From assembly GCA_013388905.1 (NCBI GenBank), contig JACAEI010000035.1:1-53970 (forward strand): DNA of 53,970 nucleotides. The letters run 5' to 3'. Origin of the DNA: Candidatus Bathyarchaeota archaeon. GTDB lineage: Archaea > Thermoproteota > Bathyarchaeia > Bathyarchaeales > Bathycorpusculaceae. Under the pieces are notes generated by a model. It made no database searches, was not told where the DNA came from, and saw only the letters and a program-made list of their open reading frames with translations. Position numbers and translations under genes: made by a program. Below are positions 30,266-38,692 of this stretch, one piece after another (within the stretch, counting starts at the first letter, position 1; every line of letters begins with the position of its first letter).

Positions 30266-30825
30266 GAAAGCCCCCGAGCAATTAATCGCGCTACACGAAT
30301 CGGCTCAGGAACTCTACTACAAAAAACCAAAGAACGAACAATATTCTGCGCTTGCTTAATGTTTATACCCACAGTTTCGACATAAATAGGTAATTCTTTT
30401 GCTACTACGAGGATCCTATAGACACGACCTATTTTCTTAAATACTTCCCACCGCTGTTTCCAGTCATCAAAATGCCTTTGGAGAGCCCTCCTTACAGTTA
30501 TATTATTTGGTCTTGTTCGTGATACGACGATGACTGGTTTTTTAAATGTCTCATGAATCACAACTGGGTCAATAACGTTAAAGCCCGCGAAGGAAATTCC
30601 AGCTAGAAAAACTGCGCTAAAGCTCAATTCTTTTAAAGCTTCTACGAGCTTTTCTGTTGCGTCTGACCCGTCTACAGCTATTCTTTTTATCTTTACTTTT
30701 TCAATTTTTGCTTCTTTAAGTAAAACTACAGCGAGAATTGCCGTTTTTGTTACACCTTTCTGGAAGCTTCCATCTTCAACCCCTATTACGGACATTTTTA
30801 GAAAGACATTTCGGGTCATAATCAA
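30262..30825 (-). CDS. DUF99 family protein (UPF0215)
   Basis: The 187 residues match DUF99: VIGVEDGSFQKG near the N-terminus, AVDGSDATEKLVEAL, AVFLAGISFAGFNVIDPVVIHE, KPVIVVSRTRP and a C-terminal EPIRVARLIARGLS. The family is archaeal and uncharacterised, with an endonuclease V-like fold suggested by others. It overlaps the end of orc1/cdc6 by 50 bases from this start (20 from the ATG at 30795), so it is in the same operon. Confidence 0.85.
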   Translation of the reverse strand: MIMTRNVFLKMSVIGVEDGSFQKGVTKTAILAVVLLKEAKIEKVKIKRIAVDGSDATEKLVEALKELSFSAVFLAGISFAGFNVIDPVVIHETFKKPVIVVSRTRPNNITVRRALQRHFDDWKQRWEVFKKIGRVYRILVVAKELPIYVETVGINIKQAQNIVRSLVFCSRVPEPIRVARLIARGLS

Positions 30826-31999
30826 TCAAGCGCCCAAGTCTATTATCACTGATAAATACGTCTTTAATAAGGCTGCGTGCCATTTCCAGCCTAATCTTTT
30901 TTGTACGTCCATATCTTCCCATGCTTATAACTCTTGCATTCAAAAGCCCCATAGAATCAAGTTCATTCACCAAAGTGCTTAGACGACGCTGTGTCAAAGG
31001 TGTAACACCTAATTCGTCGCATATCTCAGCATAAACCTCATAGATCTCACCCGTATTAGCTTGGTGGATGTCAGCTTTTTTCAAGTGATACACGCTTAAA
31101 ACCACAAGTTTTGAATGTAAAGTTAAATTTTTAAGAGCCTCAACGACACGGTTATGTTCAATGTGCTTTTCAGCTTCGCGCACATGTTCTTCATTCACAA
31201 CCGCTGCACCTTTTCTTTCAGCAACTTCTCCTGCAACACGTAACAGGTCTAAAGCTCGCCTTGCGTCTCCATGCTCTGCTGCGGCCAAAGCTGCACACAA
31301 ATTTAGGGCAGAATCGGACAAAACACCTTTAGAAAAGGCAATCTTTGCGCGTTCAAAAAGAATGTTTCGCAACTCACTAGCGTCGTACGGCCTAAAAACA
31401 ATTTCCTCTTCGCTTAACGAACTAAAAACACGAGGATCAAGAAACTCTTTTAATCGAAGGTCGTTTGATATGCCAACAAGTGATGCTTTGCTTTTGTCTA
31501 AAGTTTCATTGATTCTTGTCAACTCATAGAGAAGGGTGTCACCGCGAGATTTTATAAGTGCATCAACCTCGTCCAAAACAGCAATAAAGATGCTTTTTGA
31601 AGAATCCAAGCCTGTTCTAAACCGTTCAAAGACTTCTCCAACTGATAAGCCTGTAAAAGGAACAGCGACACCTATACTCTGGCACAATCCCGTAAAAACG
31701 CGGTATTCAGAACCTACCATACGACAGTTAATATAACAAAATTTGACTGGTGCGTTAAATTCCTTCGATTTAATTTCTAGATGAGTTAATACATGTTTAG
31801 TTACTGCTGTCTTGCCCGTTCCAGTTTTCCCATAAATGAAAACGTTTGAACATCTTGCTCCCTTCAAGACAGGTGCCACTATTTCTCCTATCCGTCGAAT
31901 CTGCTCCTCTCTGTGGGGCAATCTTTCTGGTAAGTAATCATGCCGCAGAACCTCCCGATCTTCAAAAATGTGCGCTTCGCCAACAAATCTGTCGAACAA
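30776..31999 (-). CDS. cdc6: Orc1/Cdc6 replication initiator
   Basis: A 407-residue AAA+ initiator: LPHREEQIRRI, Walker A FIYGKTGTGKTAVTKHV near residue 57, Walker B FIAVLDEVDALI near 140, sensor 1 ASLVGISNDLRL, sensor 2 region EHGDARRALDLLRVAGE, and a C-terminal winged helix (TPLTQRRLSTLVNELDSMGLL). It recognises ORB boxes and loads the MCM helicase. A TTG at 31999 is the only canonical start before the stop upstream, although the frame continues 20 codons further as TNILND. It lies next to the predicted origin. Confidence 0.94.
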   Translation of the reverse strand: MFDRFVGEAHIFEDREVLRHDYLPERLPHREEQIRRIGEIVAPVLKGARCSNVFIYGKTGTGKTAVTKHVLTHLEIKSKEFNAPVKFCYINCRMVGSEYRVFTGLCQSIGVAVPFTGLSVGEVFERFRTGLDSSKSIFIAVLDEVDALIKSRGDTLLYELTRINETLDKSKASLVGISNDLRLKEFLDPRVFSSLSEEEIVFRPYDASELRNILFERAKIAFSKGVLSDSALNLCAALAAAEHGDARRALDLLRVAGEVAERKGAAVVNEEHVREAEKHIEHNRVVEALKNLTLHSKLVVLSVYHLKKADIHQANTGEIYEVYAEICDELGVTPLTQRRLSTLVNELDSMGLLNARVISMGRYGRTKKIRLEMARSLIKDVFISDNRLGRLIDYDPKCLSKNVRNRG

Positions 32000-32164
32000 G
32001 TCATTGAGTATGTTAGTGTTGTCCGTAGGTCCTTCTCCCTCTTTTTTCTAAAGGTAAACGCCTCATTTTAATGCCGAAAAAATAAGTACTATCATACAGA
32101 AAAATGGATTTGAAAGAACAGAATTATAAAAAACGTTGAGTAAAGTAAGGTTAGTTTAAAGGAA

Positions 32165-32191
32165 GAGGGACACCCCTATTTCTTTTGGAAA
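32165..32191 (-). repeat. ORB-like box 1 (minus orientation)
   Basis: On the minus strand it begins TTTCCAAAAGAAATAGGGG and continues TGTCCCTC. The last 13 bases (AGGGGTGTCCCTC) are identical to box 2 in inverted orientation 180 bases away. The G-string end is the part bound by the Orc1/Cdc6 AAA+ domain; the TTTCC end is shared with ORB but the dyad is incomplete. Confidence 0.7.
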
Positions 32192-32354
32192 TCTTTACAC
32201 GAAAGTTGTTGATAAGTTAATTTATTTAAAAGAAATATACATACTCCAATAGATAAAATGCAAGTTAGTAATTAAATAATTTTCCTATAAAATTTTAGAT
32301 TACAAAAGAAGAAAAATTTTATCAGAGGTTAGAACACCATATACAATGAACTTT

Positions 32355-32383
32355 TTTCCACTGGATATTTAGGGGTGTCCCTC
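32355..32383 (+). repeat. ORB-like box 2 (plus orientation)
   Basis: TTTCCACTGGATATTT is followed by AGGGGTGTCCCTC. The dyad half TCCACTGGA and the G-string match the ORB layout. It is the mirror partner of box 1 across the AT-rich core. Confidence 0.75.
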
Positions 32384-32601
32384 ATGAATTCTTACTTTTT
32401 CATGTTTATTTTTTCTAAGTGACAAGATTATTTTCCTCAATTTTTGTCCTTATTTACGCTAAACAGAGAAGTTACAATTTTTTCCCCTATTCTTTTTTCA
32501 CACTTTTGTGAACTACTTGTGAAATTAACTCGATGATGTCTCTTTTCTCTGTCGCTTTCTCCTTTTATTAACGTTTTTATGTATTTCTTCAGTGAATACG
32601 C

Positions 32602-32627
32602 CACCCCTTCGCTTCCACTGGAAATAT
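32602..32627 (-). repeat. ORB box 3, near-canonical
   Basis: On the minus strand it reads TTTCCAGTGGAAGCGAAGG and then GGTG, matching the ORB consensus (dyad TTCCAGTGGAAAC, then GAA(A/G) and a G-string) with few differences. It is the best single support for an origin here. Confidence 0.85.
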
Positions 32628-32821
32628 AAGCTAAGTGGTGCCTTTTTACGCTTTTCTTGTTTAAAGAGGCTGTGATACTTGTAATTACAAAAAAAGCATG
32701 ATTCTCGTCTCTTTTCCTTTTTCTTGTTTGCCTTAGTACCATTTGCTTTCTATTTTTTCACCATAAAACCTATAACTTGTGAACTGCAAATTGTGAACAC
32801 CAACTCCGGTGCAAGTGGTTA

Positions 32822-33253
32822 ATGCCAACTAGGAAAATGCGCGTTGAAGTATTCGACGGTGAAGGCAATAAATATACTGTGTCCTTTGAAGGGCAAATAA
32901 GTAGAGAAAAAGCTCTTAGGCTTCTAGATCTGGTGGAATTGCTGGGTGGAGTGCCTGCTAATAGTGAAAACCCTGAAGCCAGTCAGCAAATTTCAAGTAG
33001 TGATGTTTCGAAATATGAAAAAGTTCGCGTGTTAATTTGCAAGCATTTTCCTTTGATTTGGTTTTCCTCTCGTGACATTCATCCGGTTTATGAACAAGAA
33101 TATAAGGAACCAATAAGCCTTAGCACAGTAGCCACTTATCTTGCCAGAATGGCGAATAAAGGAGTACTCGTAAAAGTTGGTTCCTCTAGAAGCTTAAAAT
33201 ATAAATTGGCCCCGAGTTTTCCCCAAGTCACAGTTAGACAACAAACAACATGA
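32822..33253 (+). CDS. Winged-helix protein next to the origin
   Basis: The protein has 143 residues. The N-terminal half (MRVEVFDGEGNKYTVSFEGQISREKALRLLDLVELLGG) resembles a small strand-helix module often seen before archaeal winged helices. The C-terminal half is a winged helix (YEKVRVLICKHFPLIWFSSRDIHPVYEQEYKEPISLSTVATYLARMANKGVLVKVG). It faces away from the origin and is followed by nurA. A role as origin-associated factor, analogous to but not homologous by evidence with WhiP, is speculation from position. Confidence 0.75.
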   Translation: MPTRKMRVEVFDGEGNKYTVSFEGQISREKALRLLDLVELLGGVPANSENPEASQQISSSDVSKYEKVRVLICKHFPLIWFSSRDIHPVYEQEYKEPISLSTVATYLARMANKGVLVKVGSSRSLKYKLAPSFPQVTVRQQTT

Positions 33254-33330: not shown

Positions 33331-34338
33331 TTGCCATTGAATGCCCTGATCAAAGAAGATTTAGTTGAAATGGGAAAGAAGTTTAGCTTATACATAGAAA
33401 AAGGGCGGGTGACCGGACCAATCGAAGTTCGTGAAGAACCGATGATTGCTTTAAAACCAAGCATAGACAACATAAAACCCTTAAGGAAAATCAGCAATTT
33501 CAAAGGACAGTTTTGGGCAGTTGACTGTTCGACTAGAACTTTAAAAAGAGCAAATAATTGGGGCATCTATCTGATGCGGACTACGTCAGCTACTCTTGAG
33601 GGGCGTAGCGTAAACTGGGATTATGCAGAGAGAATATGTTCTGTAGTGGGAGACGCGTATACTCGTAGTAATTATTTGACGGACTTTCGAATAGAGTTGG
33701 AAAGCCAGATGGCTTTGCGACTTTTAGATAGGGAATATTACGAGGATCCTCGTAGTATCTACCTTCTCTTGGATGGTGGCGGCTATTTTGGCGGTGAGAG
33801 AAAATTTCGTGTGGCACTGTATGATGAATGCAAGAAAAAAGGAATTAACTTGCTGGCTATAAGCAAGAATTCGCCCTTACTTCATGACGATAAAGGTCGC
33901 GACTTCATCGCTACTACGAGTATACTCTCGCCTTATGGTATATGGGTTTATCATCCAATTAGAAAGGCTGAGAAAGATCATAGTCTTTATGGTGATATAT
34001 CCATAGTAAAATTATGCGAAGAAAGTCATCGCATTTTCCGCTGTGATATCATGGATTACCTTACAACACGGCAGGTTAATGAGCTATTATCGCCGTTAAC
34101 TTTTTCTTCAGAAGATCCAAGATGTATGGGCTATCCAATTGCCCTTTGGCTTGCCCACGAGTTCTCTGCACCTTCCGTATCTATGCTTCTCCATTACCAT
34201 GACCTTATTGAAAAAGAACTTAGCGCCTTTGGGCTCTTGGATGTTCTTCGCAGAGAAGAACTTACATGCAGATTTGTGGACGAGATTCATGGAATAAGAT
34301 ATGCATACCAACGGGAGTTCTGGGGCGATTATGTCTGA
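33331..34338 (+). CDS. nurA: NurA nuclease
   Basis: A 335-residue NurA-domain 5'-3' exonuclease used with HerA in DNA end resection for recombination. Metal-site regions are WAVDCSTRTLKRA near residue 56 and YLLLDGGGYFGGE near 145, with IALWLAHEFSAPS and FVDEIHGIRYAYQRE near the end. The TTG start at 33331 follows AGAAGGG. The 3' end overlaps herA by 8 bases, which couples the pair. Confidence 0.85.
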   Translation: MPLNALIKEDLVEMGKKFSLYIEKGRVTGPIEVREEPMIALKPSIDNIKPLRKISNFKGQFWAVDCSTRTLKRANNWGIYLMRTTSATLEGRSVNWDYAERICSVVGDAYTRSNYLTDFRIELESQMALRLLDREYYEDPRSIYLLLDGGGYFGGERKFRVALYDECKKKGINLLAISKNSPLLHDDKGRDFIATTSILSPYGIWVYHPIRKAEKDHSLYGDISIVKLCEESHRIFRCDIMDYLTTRQVNELLSPLTFSSEDPRCMGYPIALWLAHEFSAPSVSMLLHYHDLIEKELSAFGLLDVLRREELTCRFVDEIHGIRYAYQREFWGDYV

Positions 34339-35869
34339 ATCAATTGGTTTTGTGTGTGGAACGGAAGGAGACAAAATATCTTTCTTCTTGAATCATGGAG
34401 TAGCGCTCTCTTATGGGCAGATTGTTAGAATAGATTCTGACGAAAGAAGCTTTTATGCCCGAGTTGTTAACGCCCAAAGTAGCTCTACTTTGAAAACGAT
34501 AGAACAACTGCGCGAAGCTGAAGGCAAGGAAGCTTTTGGTCCTTACTCCAGCTTTCGAAGTGTTGACGCTATTCTATTTTTGGAAAAGAAGGATGGTAAA
34601 ATCCGTTCTCCAACCTTCAATCCAAATTATAGAGATAAGGTTTTTACAGCGAACGAAGAAGATTGCACTGTTCTAAAACTTTCTGGAGAACTTGAAGTAG
34701 GTCGCCTTCGTTCTGGAGAGCAACTATTGGGGTCTGCCGGAATAAATATAGAGGCAATACCGCTAATGATGGGCATGTTCGGAATGACTGGCTCTGGAAA
34801 AACCAACACAGAACTTATTCTTAATGCACAAATTATTGACAACAGCCCACAAACAGTTGCTCTCATTTTCGATTTTGCTGGCCAACTTCTTGATGGAAAG
34901 GGAATTAGACCACAAAAGGGACTGAAAGACCACCCATTCTTCCATAGCAAGGTTCAATATTATTCTGCACGAGATCGGAAAATGGTTGTTGGTTTATACA
35001 CAATTACTCCGGAAAAGCTGATTACGCTCTTTCCTGACCTAGGGGTTCCTCAATTTAGGCTTGCCCAAAAACTTTACAGAAAGTTGGGCAAAGGGTGGAT
35101 CCAAGATACTAAAGAGGTTTATGGTGCAGAGGGCTATGTTGGCGTGGGTCGCATTGCAGACTATAAGATGAAACATGTTATAGAAGCTCTAATGCTTAAA
35201 TTATCTTCTCTTTCCTATGACCTTTTCCCAGTATCTGACTACAGCTTTGTTGACAGCGTCACCCAGAACATAGCTAATGGAATAACGTGTTTGGTCGACA
35301 TTTCCGGAATAAGCTCTGACGAACAAAACAAAATAGTATGCCTTACAGCGTCAGCAGTAGCCCAGCATTATAAGCGCATGTGGGAAGAAAACTACGAAGA
35401 ATGGAAAAATCTGCCTACTCTTCTTATAACCCTAGAAGAAGCACATGAATTTCTTGATCCAAACAAATCGAGAACAATATTCTCTGATATTGCTCTAACA
35501 TACCGTAAATACAGGGTTGGACTTAACGCTGTGACGCCGAGGCCTTCTCGGATTAATTTTGACGTTTTCGCTGAGTTGTGGACTAAAGTTATTATGAAAA
35601 CAGAGCTGCGAAAAGATAGAGCTTACCTAACTGAAAACACGCCTTACTTGGAGTATAGCGACACTGAGATAAAAATGCTCGATGTAGGCGAAGCCTTGCT
35701 TATCTCTGAGCCCAAAATCAGATTTGCTGTACCAATAAAAGTGACACATTACCCCGAATATTTGGCTAAAAAGGAAAACAATAATTACCGATTGCCTGAA
35801 TCACAGAATCTTTCTGAAATGGATAAGCGCCTAAAAAAACTTGACGAACAAAAATCTCTTTCGCTATAG
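34331..35869 (+). CDS. herA: HerA-family DNA translocase/helicase
   Basis: The protein has 512 residues from ATG at 34331. The N-terminal HAS-barrel (VCGTEGDKISFFLNHGVALSYGQIVRI) leads into a RecA-like motor: Walker A MFGMTGSGKTNTELIL near residue 150, Walker B LLITLEEAHEFLDP near 372, and TYRKYRVGLNAVTPRPSRI. HerA forms a hexameric ring that binds NurA. It is directly downstream of nurA. Confidence 0.88.
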   Translation: MSESIGFVCGTEGDKISFFLNHGVALSYGQIVRIDSDERSFYARVVNAQSSSTLKTIEQLREAEGKEAFGPYSSFRSVDAILFLEKKDGKIRSPTFNPNYRDKVFTANEEDCTVLKLSGELEVGRLRSGEQLLGSAGINIEAIPLMMGMFGMTGSGKTNTELILNAQIIDNSPQTVALIFDFAGQLLDGKGIRPQKGLKDHPFFHSKVQYYSARDRKMVVGLYTITPEKLITLFPDLGVPQFRLAQKLYRKLGKGWIQDTKEVYGAEGYVGVGRIADYKMKHVIEALMLKLSSLSYDLFPVSDYSFVDSVTQNIANGITCLVDISGISSDEQNKIVCLTASAVAQHYKRMWEENYEEWKNLPTLLITLEEAHEFLDPNKSRTIFSDIALTYRKYRVGLNAVTPRPSRINFDVFAELWTKVIMKTELRKDRAYLTENTPYLEYSDTEIKMLDVGEALLISEPKIRFAVPIKVTHYPEYLAKKENNNYRLPESQNLSEMDKRLKKLDEQKSLSL

Positions 35870-35878
35870 TAAATTATG

Positions 35879-36592
35879 TTATGCTGTGCCGCTTTCTGCT
35901 TTCTTAAGAAGTTTACTCATTTCCTCTTTAACACTATATTTAAACGGAATTTTGCTGGTGTCCCTCTCTAAGTATCCACCTTCGTAAAGCTTCTTCATCA
36001 ACCGCGCCGTATGTTCCCTGCTAAGCTTTATTCGTTCTTTAATCTCAGGCGCTGTCTTAGGGCCTTCTGAAGTCAGCATCTCAAGCGCGGATAACTCTGT
36101 TTCAGTTAATGGGGCCAAGGCTTTCTCTCTTTTTATGGGTATTACTGCCTCAATTTTTGCCTCGGGGGTTGCTAAAAACTGTCGAGCTTGCTCTTCAACT
36201 GCGGAAAGCTTTGCAACTAGCGCCTCTTGTGACACAGCGACATCACGCACTTTTCGCTCAACCTCTTCTAAACGGCTTATCTCCCTTTCTCTATCTTCCC
36301 TAATAATGCTGATTTGACTCTCTAAATTTTGGATTTTCTTGCTTGCTTCTTCTGTTTTCTTTACCGCGTCATCACTTCTCGAGGAAGCAGCCTCAACCTT
36401 GTAAGCTATGCACTCCAACTTGTCAGCTTCCTGTTTGAACTGCCTATTAAAACTTAAAACAATGTCTTCAACGGCTTCTCTAGCTTTTTCGTACTCTCTT
36501 TTAACACTTCGTAGCTGTCTATAATATTCTACCGCGGCGGCTGCTGTCATCGCAAGCAGAACGCCAACAAGAACTAGCAAAATTTCCGTCAA
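35879..36592 (-). CDS. Membrane-anchored coiled-coil protein with C-terminal winged helix
   Basis: In 237 residues: an N-terminal membrane helix (EILLVLVGVLLAMTAAAAVEYY), a long coiled coil from about 25 to 155 (VKREYEKAREAVEDI to VEEQARQFL), then a MarR-like winged helix near 165-235 (LTETELSALEMLTSEGPKTAPEIKERIKLSREHTARLMKKLYEGGYLERD). The layout would put a DNA-binding domain on a coiled-coil arm at the membrane. It starts with TTG behind GAGGCGAG and has an array of TGTGAT repeats upstream. It is convergent with herA, 9 bases apart. Confidence 0.8.
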   Translation of the reverse strand: MTEILLVLVGVLLAMTAAAAVEYYRQLRSVKREYEKAREAVEDIVLSFNRQFKQEADKLECIAYKVEAASSRSDDAVKKTEEASKKIQNLESQISIIREDREREISRLEEVERKVRDVAVSQEALVAKLSAVEEQARQFLATPEAKIEAVIPIKREKALAPLTETELSALEMLTSEGPKTAPEIKERIKLSREHTARLMKKLYEGGYLERDTSKIPFKYSVKEEMSKLLKKAESGTA

Positions 36593-36604
36593 GCAACTCG
36601 CCTC

Positions 36605-36887
36605 TGTGATTTAAATGTGATTAGGTGTGATTTATTCATGTTGCATCACAAATCACACTTTAATGGATAAGAGATTTAAAGATTATGGTATAGTATTCAC
36701 TTAAGATAACGCATGATATCACACATCACGAAACCAAGTAAAGGCTCTTCGGGCTAAGCTGATAACGCAATGTGAATAAGTCTTCGTTTTGAGGTTATTT
36801 TTGCGTTTTCAACTCTTTTCAGCGTTATTTATCTGCGAGCATTGTTTATGCCTAATAATTGTCCATTTAATGAGCGTGATTTGTGAT
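36605..36887. repeat. TGTGAT repeat array upstream of the coiled-coil winged-helix gene
   Basis: TGTGAT occurs in direct orientation at 36605, 36616 and 36626, spaced 11 and 10 bases (one helical turn). Inverted copies ATCACA are at 36645, 36652 and 36718, and another direct copy is at 36882. It covers the promoter region of the gene starting at 36592 and reaches the end of the 159-residue gene. It is probably the operator or binding array of a local DNA-binding protein. The gap (36593-36888) holds no gene. Confidence 0.7.
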
Positions 36888-36888
36888 G

Positions 36889-37368
36889 TCACAGCTGGTT
36901 TTCAGACCCACTTGATAGCTGTTTTAGGCATTTTTCAAGCTCTTCTCGTACAATTTCCATGGATTTTAAGTGTTCACTTAACTCTGCACTTTTGTTTGGC
37001 ATGTTTTTGTATGCTTCTAAATACTCTTTTAATTTGTTCGCTATTTCGAGATAGGGATCTAAAGTTGTGCTTTCAAATACTCCCAAATATCCTAAAAGCA
37101 GTATGGTGTAGATGGATTTTATGACATTTTCTTTCGCCTGTTTTAGTGTCCTATTGAAGGCGCCTCGGCTTATTTTTGCCTTTGTTAGCCTTAATCTGGC
37201 TTTTTCATCGTATTTAAGCGTTTTTCCTGCAATATTATCAGCTAAAATGTCAATAAGCAATGTTTCAAGCTGTGTTTCTGTTAAGTGGCTATTTTGTGAA
37301 AGTATTTTAGTAATAGAGTCGTTTAGTGAGCTTATTAGCCATGGTTGAACGCCTTCTTTTAGTTTCAA
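36889..37368 (-). CDS. Uncharacterised helical protein with HTH-like centre
   Basis: The protein has 159 residues and is all alpha. The middle block KARLRLTKAKISRGAFNRTLKQAKENVIKSIYTILLLGYLGVFE resembles a helix-turn-helix, and the N-terminal TETQLETLLIDILADNIAGKTL may form a helical dimer surface. No family is recognised. It lies upstream of the repeat array and the membrane winged-helix gene on the same strand and may be its regulator. Confidence 0.65.
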   Translation of the reverse strand: MKLKEGVQPWLISSLNDSITKILSQNSHLTETQLETLLIDILADNIAGKTLKYDEKARLRLTKAKISRGAFNRTLKQAKENVIKSIYTILLLGYLGVFESTTLDPYLEIANKLKEYLEAYKNMPNKSAELSEHLKSMEIVREELEKCLKQLSSGSENQL

Positions 37369-37513
37369 TATTTCCTCTCCACGCTTATGCCGATTGAATA
37401 CAGTTTTGTATACAGACTATGCTTTTAAGGCTGTCGGATGCGTATGCCTTTGCTATAGTTATTAACGCAAACATTTTATTCTTAATTTGGCAATCCATAG
37501 TGAGGAACGTCTG

Positions 37514-38692
37514 TTGATTTCAAACTTTAAGCCTGCAAACCGCCTAAAACGCATAAAGCCCTCTGGAATACGCCGATTTTTCACTTTAGCCCAAGAAACA
37601 CCAGACATCATTAATTTAAGCGTGGGAGAACCTGATTTCGCTCCCCCCGAACATGCGCTAGAAGCTGGCTGGCAAGCAGCAAAAGAAGGCAAAACCCATT
37701 ATACACCAACCAACGGCATTCCAGAGCTTCGGGAGGAACTCGCTCGAAAAGCTTACAGAGATTATGGGTTAAATTATGATCCTGCCTCTGAAATTTTAAT
37801 AACTGTTGGCGGCACTGAAGCAATTTTTTCTGCACTTATTAGCTTAATAGACGCGGGTGATGAAGTTCTAATTCCTAACCCAGGTTTCGTCTGTTATGAA
37901 CCATGCGTCCACTTAGCAGAAGGGGTCCCGGTTTCTGTTCCTTTGCTGGAAAAGAACGGGTTTAAACCATCCATTGATGATGTGATGTCACTAATCACAA
38001 AGAAGTCACGTGTGATAATTTTGAATTATCCGAATAACCCGACGGGCGCCGTTCTATCGTATGATGAGCTTGCTGCATTGGCAAAAGTTGCTGTTGAACA
38101 CGATATGGTTGTGATTTCTGACGAGGTTTATGAAAAAATAATATATGACAACGCTAAGCACCACTGTGCTGCTACCTTCCCAGAAATGCGTGAACGTACA
38201 ATCGTTGTCAATTCTTTCTCTAAAACATATGCAATGACAGGTTTGCGTGTTGGTTTCCTCTATGGACCAAAAGAACTCGTTTCTCCTATTTGGCTTGCTC
38301 AACAATATATCATTGCATGTGCAGATAGCCTGGCGCAATACATTGCCTTAGCCGCGTTAAGAGAACCTCAATATTTTGTTGAAGAAATGGTACGGGAATT
38401 TGATAGACGACGCCGTTTGATATATTCGCGGCTTAGAGAGATTGAAGGGTTCCGTTGTACCTTGCCAAAAGGGGCATTCTATGTTTTTCCAAATATAACG
38501 GATTTTGGCATGACTTCAGAAGAATTTGCGGAACTCCTTATAAAAAAAGCTCATGTTGCAGCAGTTCCTGGTTCAGCCTTTGGCAGCTATGGTGAAGGTT
38601 GCATGAGATTTTCTTATGCTGCAGCTTATGAACAGTTAGAAGAAGCATTGGATCGCATAGAAACGGCTGTTAAGGCGTTAAAGAAACCATAA
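37514..38692 (+). CDS. Class I aminotransferase (aspartate/aromatic type)
   Basis: From TTG at 37514 it has 392 residues. PLP enzyme motifs are INLSVGEPDFAPPEHALEA, VGGTEAIFSALISLI, LNYPNNPTG, VVISDEVYEKIIYD and the PLP lysine in VVNSFSKTYAMTGLRVGFL. It transfers amino groups between 2-oxo acids and amino acids such as aspartate. GTGAGG at 37499-37504 is the ribosome site for this TTG. The TTG at 37487 would add 9 residues without support. Confidence 0.88.
   Translation: MISNFKPANRLKRIKPSGIRRFFTLAQETPDIINLSVGEPDFAPPEHALEAGWQAAKEGKTHYTPTNGIPELREELARKAYRDYGLNYDPASEILITVGGTEAIFSALISLIDAGDEVLIPNPGFVCYEPCVHLAEGVPVSVPLLEKNGFKPSIDDVMSLITKKSRVIILNYPNNPTGAVLSYDELAALAKVAVEHDMVVISDEVYEKIIYDNAKHHCAATFPEMRERTIVVNSFSKTYAMTGLRVGFLYGPKELVSPIWLAQQYIIACADSLAQYIALAALREPQYFVEEMVREFDRRRRLIYSRLREIEGFRCTLPKGAFYVFPNITDFGMTSEEFAELLIKKAHVAAVPGSAFGSYGEGCMRFSYAAAYEQLEEALDRIETAVKALKKP

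Follow-up and report, generated by a model that had tools for sequence, protein, structure and literature searches.

An origin-proximal repeat array and a predicted membrane-anchored winged-helix protein in Bathyarchaeia: a candidate system for holding or segregating the chromosome at the membrane

RocS of Streptococcus pneumoniae unites a winged helix, an oligomerising coiled coil and a membrane anchor in one protein and links the chromosome to the membrane for segregation, its MerR-type domain being N-terminal and its anchor a C-terminal amphipathic helix, and its relative RacA of Bacillus subtilis binds repeated centromere-like sequences (PMC11500499). For archaea, a 2024 review of the cell cycle covers Sulfolobus, with the ParA-like SegA and its partner SegB, and Asgard archaea, with homologues of ParA and ParB; how SegA and SegB drive segregation is, by its account, not understood (PMC7617429). 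AspA of plasmid pNOB8, an archaeal winged-helix protein whose palindromic site lies upstream of its own gene, spreads on DNA (PMC5120986). We describe here a locus in a stretch of 53,970 nucleotides (the window; contig JACAEI010000035.1) from a Candidatus Bathyarchaeota archaeon, where the gene for a predicted membrane-anchored coiled-coil winged-helix protein, which we call CCWH, stands beside an array of TGTGAT-type half-sites near the probable replication origin. Our reading, to which we give a probability of about 60%, is that this single array near the origin is centromere-like, and that CCWH binds it and holds it at the membrane.

With RocS and RacA, CCWH shares a DNA-binding winged helix and a coiled coil, and with RocS a membrane anchor (predicted in CCWH), but the order is reversed, the transmembrane helix being N-terminal and the MarR-type domain C-terminal; on domain type and order CCWH falls outside this family, and there is no sign of homology. 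We know of no compact dedicated array for RocS. In the ParB-parS system the sites are origin-proximal and some lie within genes, and ParB is not known to have a membrane segment; the array resembles parS in being origin-proximal and kept by selection on DNA, whereas CCWH belongs to another protein family. Regulators of the MarR, TrmB and Lrs14 families have the same winged-helix fold and palindromic sites beside their own genes, but CCWH adds a membrane helix and a long coiled coil, and its array occupies a single locus with clusters in coding sequence. AspA is among the Foldseek hits of the CCWH winged helix. No description makes AspA a membrane protein; its gene stands together with those for ParB and ParA, and it has one 23-bp site as against a 1.4-kb array. 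No ParA or ParB was seen among the block proteins scanned or read, which sets the locus apart from an AspA-ParBA cassette; the block genes in the loci examined were cdc6, wH143, nurA/herA, p159, aspAT, NIT, nadE, GGGPS and those for PolD. SegAB of Sulfolobus is likewise a chromosomal system with near-gene sites that could be centromere or operator (PMC5120986), but the CCWH domain is a winged helix, and neither SegA nor SegB is in its block. No description of CCWH or the array was found in the literature searched, outside which most subscription papers fell. We regard the pair as a strong candidate for a hitherto undescribed system by which archaea would hold or segregate the chromosome at the membrane.

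CCWH (Table 1) had been read in a first-pass annotation as uniting three parts in one protein, a membrane helix at the N-terminus, a coiled coil of about 130 residues and a winged helix at the C-terminus, and the sequence, Pfam profiles and an AlphaFold2 (AF2) model bear this out. The hydrophobic N-terminus is followed by a basic sequence rich in R and K, and because of this stretch after the membrane helix the C-terminus is predicted to be cytoplasmic (positive-inside). Across orthologues, the mean N-terminal maximum of Kyte-Doolittle hydropathy over 19 residues (KD19) is 1.75 as against 0.67 in the remainder of the protein, the low minimum among them coming from incomplete sequence rows. In the AF2 model (mean predicted local distance difference test score, pLDDT, 87.6), residues 2-140 form one continuous helix, with pLDDT above 95 over most of it, which a low-confidence linker joins to the C-terminal winged helix. 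CCWH is matched by the Pfam profiles MarR (28.5 bits, cut-off 24.6, E 1.4e-6) and TrmB (28.0 bits, cut-off 25.6, E 1.9e-6), and its winged helix by MarR-family structures in Foldseek (best E 2e-4), AspA (structure 5k5q; target-normalised TM-score, TMt, 0.65, E 2.5e-3) being one among many such matches. The recognition helix, REHTARLMKKL in the window and REHTxRLxKKL across relatives, is nearly invariant among orthologues, as is the GTGAY core of the half-sites.

The seven TGTGAT/ATCACA copies that the annotation had reported upstream of CCWH, the first three 10-11 bases apart, are all present. They start at 36605, 36616, 36626, 36645, 36652, 36718 and 36882, the first three with spacings of 11 and 10 bp, and all lie in the 296 bp between the CCWH start and the p159 stop, as against 0.19 expected in 300 bp (Poisson P 1.8e-9). 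With GTCACA at 36888 there is an eighth half-site, by which a 12-bp palindrome is made whole. Over its full length the window shows no enrichment (35 copies of TGTGAT observed, 28 expected), so that these copies form a local cluster, and it is the densest 300 bp for half-sites in the window. The second-densest cluster, missed earlier, is site D within the aspAT coding sequence, about 1.1 kb from sites A-C, which gives the D-A-B-C series a span of about 1.4 kb. The window's aspAT holds four half-sites where 0.45 are expected, a number that 0 of 2000 synonymous shuffles reach. The annotation's phased array stands in part: the copies at 10-11 bp are there, but they form only part of an array whose conserved unit in the window's order is a 19-bp trimer of half-sites with steps of 7 bp and 6 bp. 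The core of site A, TGTGAYRTCACA, is unique in the window's genome.

CCWH is present in 50 of 61 relatives, with one orthologue per genome across Bathyarchaeia and the archaea that bear amoA. In an order-level sample of 120 loci from two overlapping genome collections, the block order DP1-cdc6-(gap with elements like the origin recognition box, ORB)-wH143-(nurA-herA in about half)-CCWH-array-p159-...-GGGPS-DP2 is largely kept. A TGTGAY array lies between p159 and CCWH in 120/120 of these loci, with 3 to 14 half-sites against about 0.5 expected, and the spacing of the half-sites is conserved. The layout is fixed: site A (TGTGAYRTCACA plus one extra half-site) lies at the p159 stop codon, site B mirrors it just 5' of the TATA-like TTTAAA, and the CCWH leader holds site C, which has three more half-sites 10-11 bp apart. 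Half-site density against distance from the p159 stop has two peaks, one at A-C (about 23/kb) and one at D (-900 to -1130; 11-20/kb); the two together run at 11-24/kb, while the density elsewhere is about 0.6/kb. The check proposed with the annotation, that orthologues be examined for the repeats and for a position near the origin, did not refute its reading: both are kept throughout the order and, in altered form, through much of the phylum. Pattern searches of whole genomes found the 12-bp palindrome at the CCWH locus, once per genome in 8 of 12, twice in one and not at all in three, while the reversed pattern gave 0 in 11 of the 12; the direct pair TGTGAYNTGTGAY occurs mostly 2-3 times at the CCWH locus and 0-1 times elsewhere, the latter count being close to that of the reversed control. 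A dispersed TGTGAY regulon was rejected, the palindrome and paired half-sites being essentially confined to the CCWH locus.

The array is also kept inside genes. Pooled over loci, aspAT holds 120 half-sites where 33 are expected from shuffling synonymous codons within each gene. In other families of the class, D falls in nadE, the neighbour of p159, while B and C fall in an antisense hypF-like gene that lies between p159 and CCWH. By the same shuffle, hypF has 12-17 half-sites against 5.5-8.2 expected in loci L111, L118, L123 and L128, and nadE has 6-9 against 2.5-5.3 in L118, L123, L127, L128 and L226, with the genes neighbouring both at the expected number. At the hypF loci it is p159/hypF that retains the array, and none is present at the CCWH promoter. 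Because of the excess within aspAT, hypF and nadE and this array-free promoter, we conclude from the sequences that selection acts on the sites at the DNA level, independently of where the CCWH promoter lies and of which gene is resident. The extra TGTGAY in the CCWH and herA coding sequences of the window's order (z about 5) was given no weight, since conserved amino acids may account for part of it (Ser-Gln yields RTCACA).

Gene and array are also lost together. p159 was found in 127 of 151 class genomes, and at 14 examined loci with p159 and without CCWH (an absence by single-sequence search, rechecked with a profile search) there is no array near p159. The tree of Cdc6, wH143, p159 and DP1 gives at least three independent losses of CCWH (L214; L213 and L217; a clade of ten), some of the genomes being incomplete (L214 58%, L213 and L217 about 75%). 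After each loss p159 is retained, as are wH143 and cdc6 where the contig reaches them.

Beyond the class, a profile search of the phylum found one CCWH homologue per genome in many families, and ten of these genomes carry archaeal amoA (families f29, f58 and f61). Their loci read DP2-GGGPS-p159-like-array-CCWH-wH143-cdc6-DP1 where the contig extends, with a CCWH that has an N-terminal hydrophobic segment and with GTGAY clusters. Relative to codons drawn from neighbouring genes, half-sites in coding sequence number 86 in CCWH where 26 are expected and 50 in p159 where 13 are; the remaining block genes are near expectation (PolD large subunit, z 2.2). L280 and L281, from further families of the phylum, encode short CCWH-like proteins of 146-147 aa, with a membrane segment and a winged helix and no long coil, whose genes adjoin a p159 homologue. 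Five loci (L111, L121, L122, L274 and L277) have a conserved open reading frame, helix-turn-helix (HTH) then CBS-like, which lies either between p159 and CCWH or immediately 5' of CCWH.

The gap between cdc6 and wH143 is the probable oriC, an assignment made because of the Orc1/Cdc6 gene and the ORB-like words. A further ORB-like form there is GGGACACCCC...GGAAA, and CCAGT(A/G)GAA is the commonest 9-mer family among 113 such gaps, occurring in about 50-65 of them. ORB-like elements adjoining cdc6, as in an ORB-type archaeal origin, are found in this gap and not in the array, which lies 3.8-4.9 kb away. GC skew, taken at 20 points in each of two single-contig relatives, locates no origin. The placing of CCWH as convergent with nurA-herA and about 4 kb from the predicted origin agrees with these positions (herA, 34301-35869). 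The nurA-herA-like pair (33331-35869) is an insertion that about half of the order has. Against the models of HerA and of the DNA translocase CedD, the HerA-like protein obtains similar scores, far below the cut-off in either case; the nurA-like product, too, matches NurA only below cut-off. p159 has no confident match in Pfam or the PDB, Foldseek with a p159 model included. Just 5' of its start, at 37380-37420 in the window and in relatives, lies a conserved palindrome, GTATACAAAANNGTATCC, possibly a p159 self-operator. The names aspAT, NIT, nadE, GGGPS, hypF, DP1 and DP2 rest on sequence motifs, not family searches, and Cdc6, HerA-like, endodU and MarR/TrmB on Pfam profile matches.

Table 1. 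Features of the CCWH locus in the window.
Feature	Position	Strand	Remarks
orc1/cdc6	30776..31999	minus	Cdc6_C 1.7e-28, Cdc6_lid 8.1e-26
Probable oriC, cdc6-wH143 gap, 822 bp	32000..32821		ORB-like TTCCACTGGAAA elements
wH143, small winged-helix protein conserved in block	32822..33253	plus	
CCWH, predicted membrane-anchored coiled-coil winged-helix protein, 237 aa	35879..36592	minus	TTG start; Pfam, AF2
CCWH winged-helix domain, residues ~162-222	35927..36109	minus	Pfam, Foldseek; recognition helix nearly invariant
CCWH long helix / predicted coiled coil, residues ~23-140	36173..36526	minus	AF2
CCWH predicted N-terminal membrane helix, residues ~3-22	36527..36586	minus	Sequence, KD19
Array site C	36605..36657		Three half-sites 10-11 bp apart plus ATCACAaATCACA pair; CCWH 5' leader
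TATA-like TTTAAA between sites B and C	36675..36680	minus	Putative CCWH promoter; conserved in alignable upstream regions
Array site B	36712..36730		Trimer upstream of TATA-like box
Array site A	36875..36893		CGTGATTTGTGATGTCACA, inverted relative to B; overlaps p159 stop codon
p159, conserved helical protein	36889..37368	minus	Adjoins array
aspAT, aminotransferase-like gene	37487..38692	plus	Carries site D; name from sequence motifs
Array site D	37981..38016		TGTGATGTCACTAATCACAAAGAAGTCACGTGTGAT in aspAT coding sequence; further TGTGAT at 38110

How might such a pair work? For a membrane protein with a DNA-binding domain and a long coiled coil, beside one grouped array that is kept whatever protein is encoded there and that adjoins the origin, a tether is the simplest account. 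CCWH would span the membrane once; its coiled coil, in the cytoplasm, would oligomerise, and its MarR-type winged helix would bind the TGTGAY half-sites of the D-A-B-C array. Cooperative binding at the grouped, inverted trimers, with looping between clusters, would then give each chromosome a single nucleoprotein complex, held at the membrane beside oriC. As a centromere-like tether, this complex would position or segregate freshly replicated origins, and it would probably also repress its own gene, as is common among partition proteins. Such autoregulation is probably a second effect, since sites B and C flank the TATA-like box of the putative CCWH promoter.

The first-pass annotation had left open whether the protein anchors the origin region or simply regulates itself. 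Were autoregulation the whole story, CCWH (or p159) would be a one-component regulator in the membrane that acts on its own promoter, with the array as operator; the MarR/TrmB-type domain, the position of C in the leader and of B and C about the TATA-like box, and a count of roughly one array per genome, which suits a regulator of itself only, all agree with this. Such an operator would hardly need site D, some 1.1 kb off in the aspAT coding sequence, or sites selected within nadE and hypF; the hypF lineages keep the array though the CCWH promoter has none, and 8 to more than 14 half-sites are unusual for one operator. We consider plain autoregulation unlikely, and favour an anchor or centromere because the array is selected in coding sequence, persists away from the CCWH promoter and is lost with CCWH, while holding autoregulation to be likely as well.

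Co-loss bears on two further explanations. The array could belong to oriC, or serve as a sink in the control of initiation, and CCWH would then regulate initiation from the membrane; that the array is always linked to cdc6, wH143, the ORB-like gap between them and the genes of both PolD subunits might suggest as much. Yet array and CCWH disappear together from loci that retain cdc6, wH143 and the origin gap, and no ORB elements are seen in the array; we rate this slightly lower again. It is more improbable still that p159 or wH143 binds the array, with CCWH a mere neighbour or partner. Site A does overlap the p159 stop codon in most groups, and by our own reading p159 has an HTH-like VSRGAFNRTLKQAR segment, but at least 14 class-level loci keep p159 and have neither CCWH nor array, and p159 seems to have its own upstream palindrome. 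It was these p159-containing genomes that led us to demote p159 as the binder which the overlap had suggested.

Several observations weigh against a tether of the kind proposed. B and C lie where the sites of an autoregulator would be expected. CCWH-like proteins of six loci from deeper lineages (L278, L279 and L282-L285) have no N-terminal membrane segment; several of them adjoin a wH143 homologue. Where NIT or another gene replaces aspAT, site D falls between genes, some hundreds of bases away from where p159 starts. hypF in L112 and L130 and nadE in L115 and L117 are not clearly above their synonymous shuffles; in both hypF cases the gene lies between p159 and CCWH, the L112 total being not above expectation and L130 having no cluster. 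One locus (L218) keeps a partial array and no detectable CCWH, and two (L124 and L125) have CCWH and no array on the available stretch, which in L124 begins near a contig edge; p159 was not found in L125. Lastly, the loci are related by descent, so that pooled z-scores and observed/expected sums overstate the independent evidence. Tests on individual loci, the swapping of genes beside the array and the recurrent co-losses suffer least from this kinship.

Chromosome segregation in archaea outside Sulfolobus is an open question, and the CCWH locus brings to it one specific protein and one specific DNA site, which cultivable ammonia-oxidising archaea share with uncultured Bathyarchaeia. More tentatively, and at a little short of even odds, the pair may represent an ancient anchoring or segregation system of Nitrososphaeria and Bathyarchaeia, built from one origin-proximal array and a transmembrane winged-helix binder, with no ParA-type motor in the locus; the array would then be an archaeal centromere fixed directly to the membrane. 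If our reading is right, the archaeal origin region would be tethered to the membrane by a route reached independently of the bacterial RocS/RacA solution.
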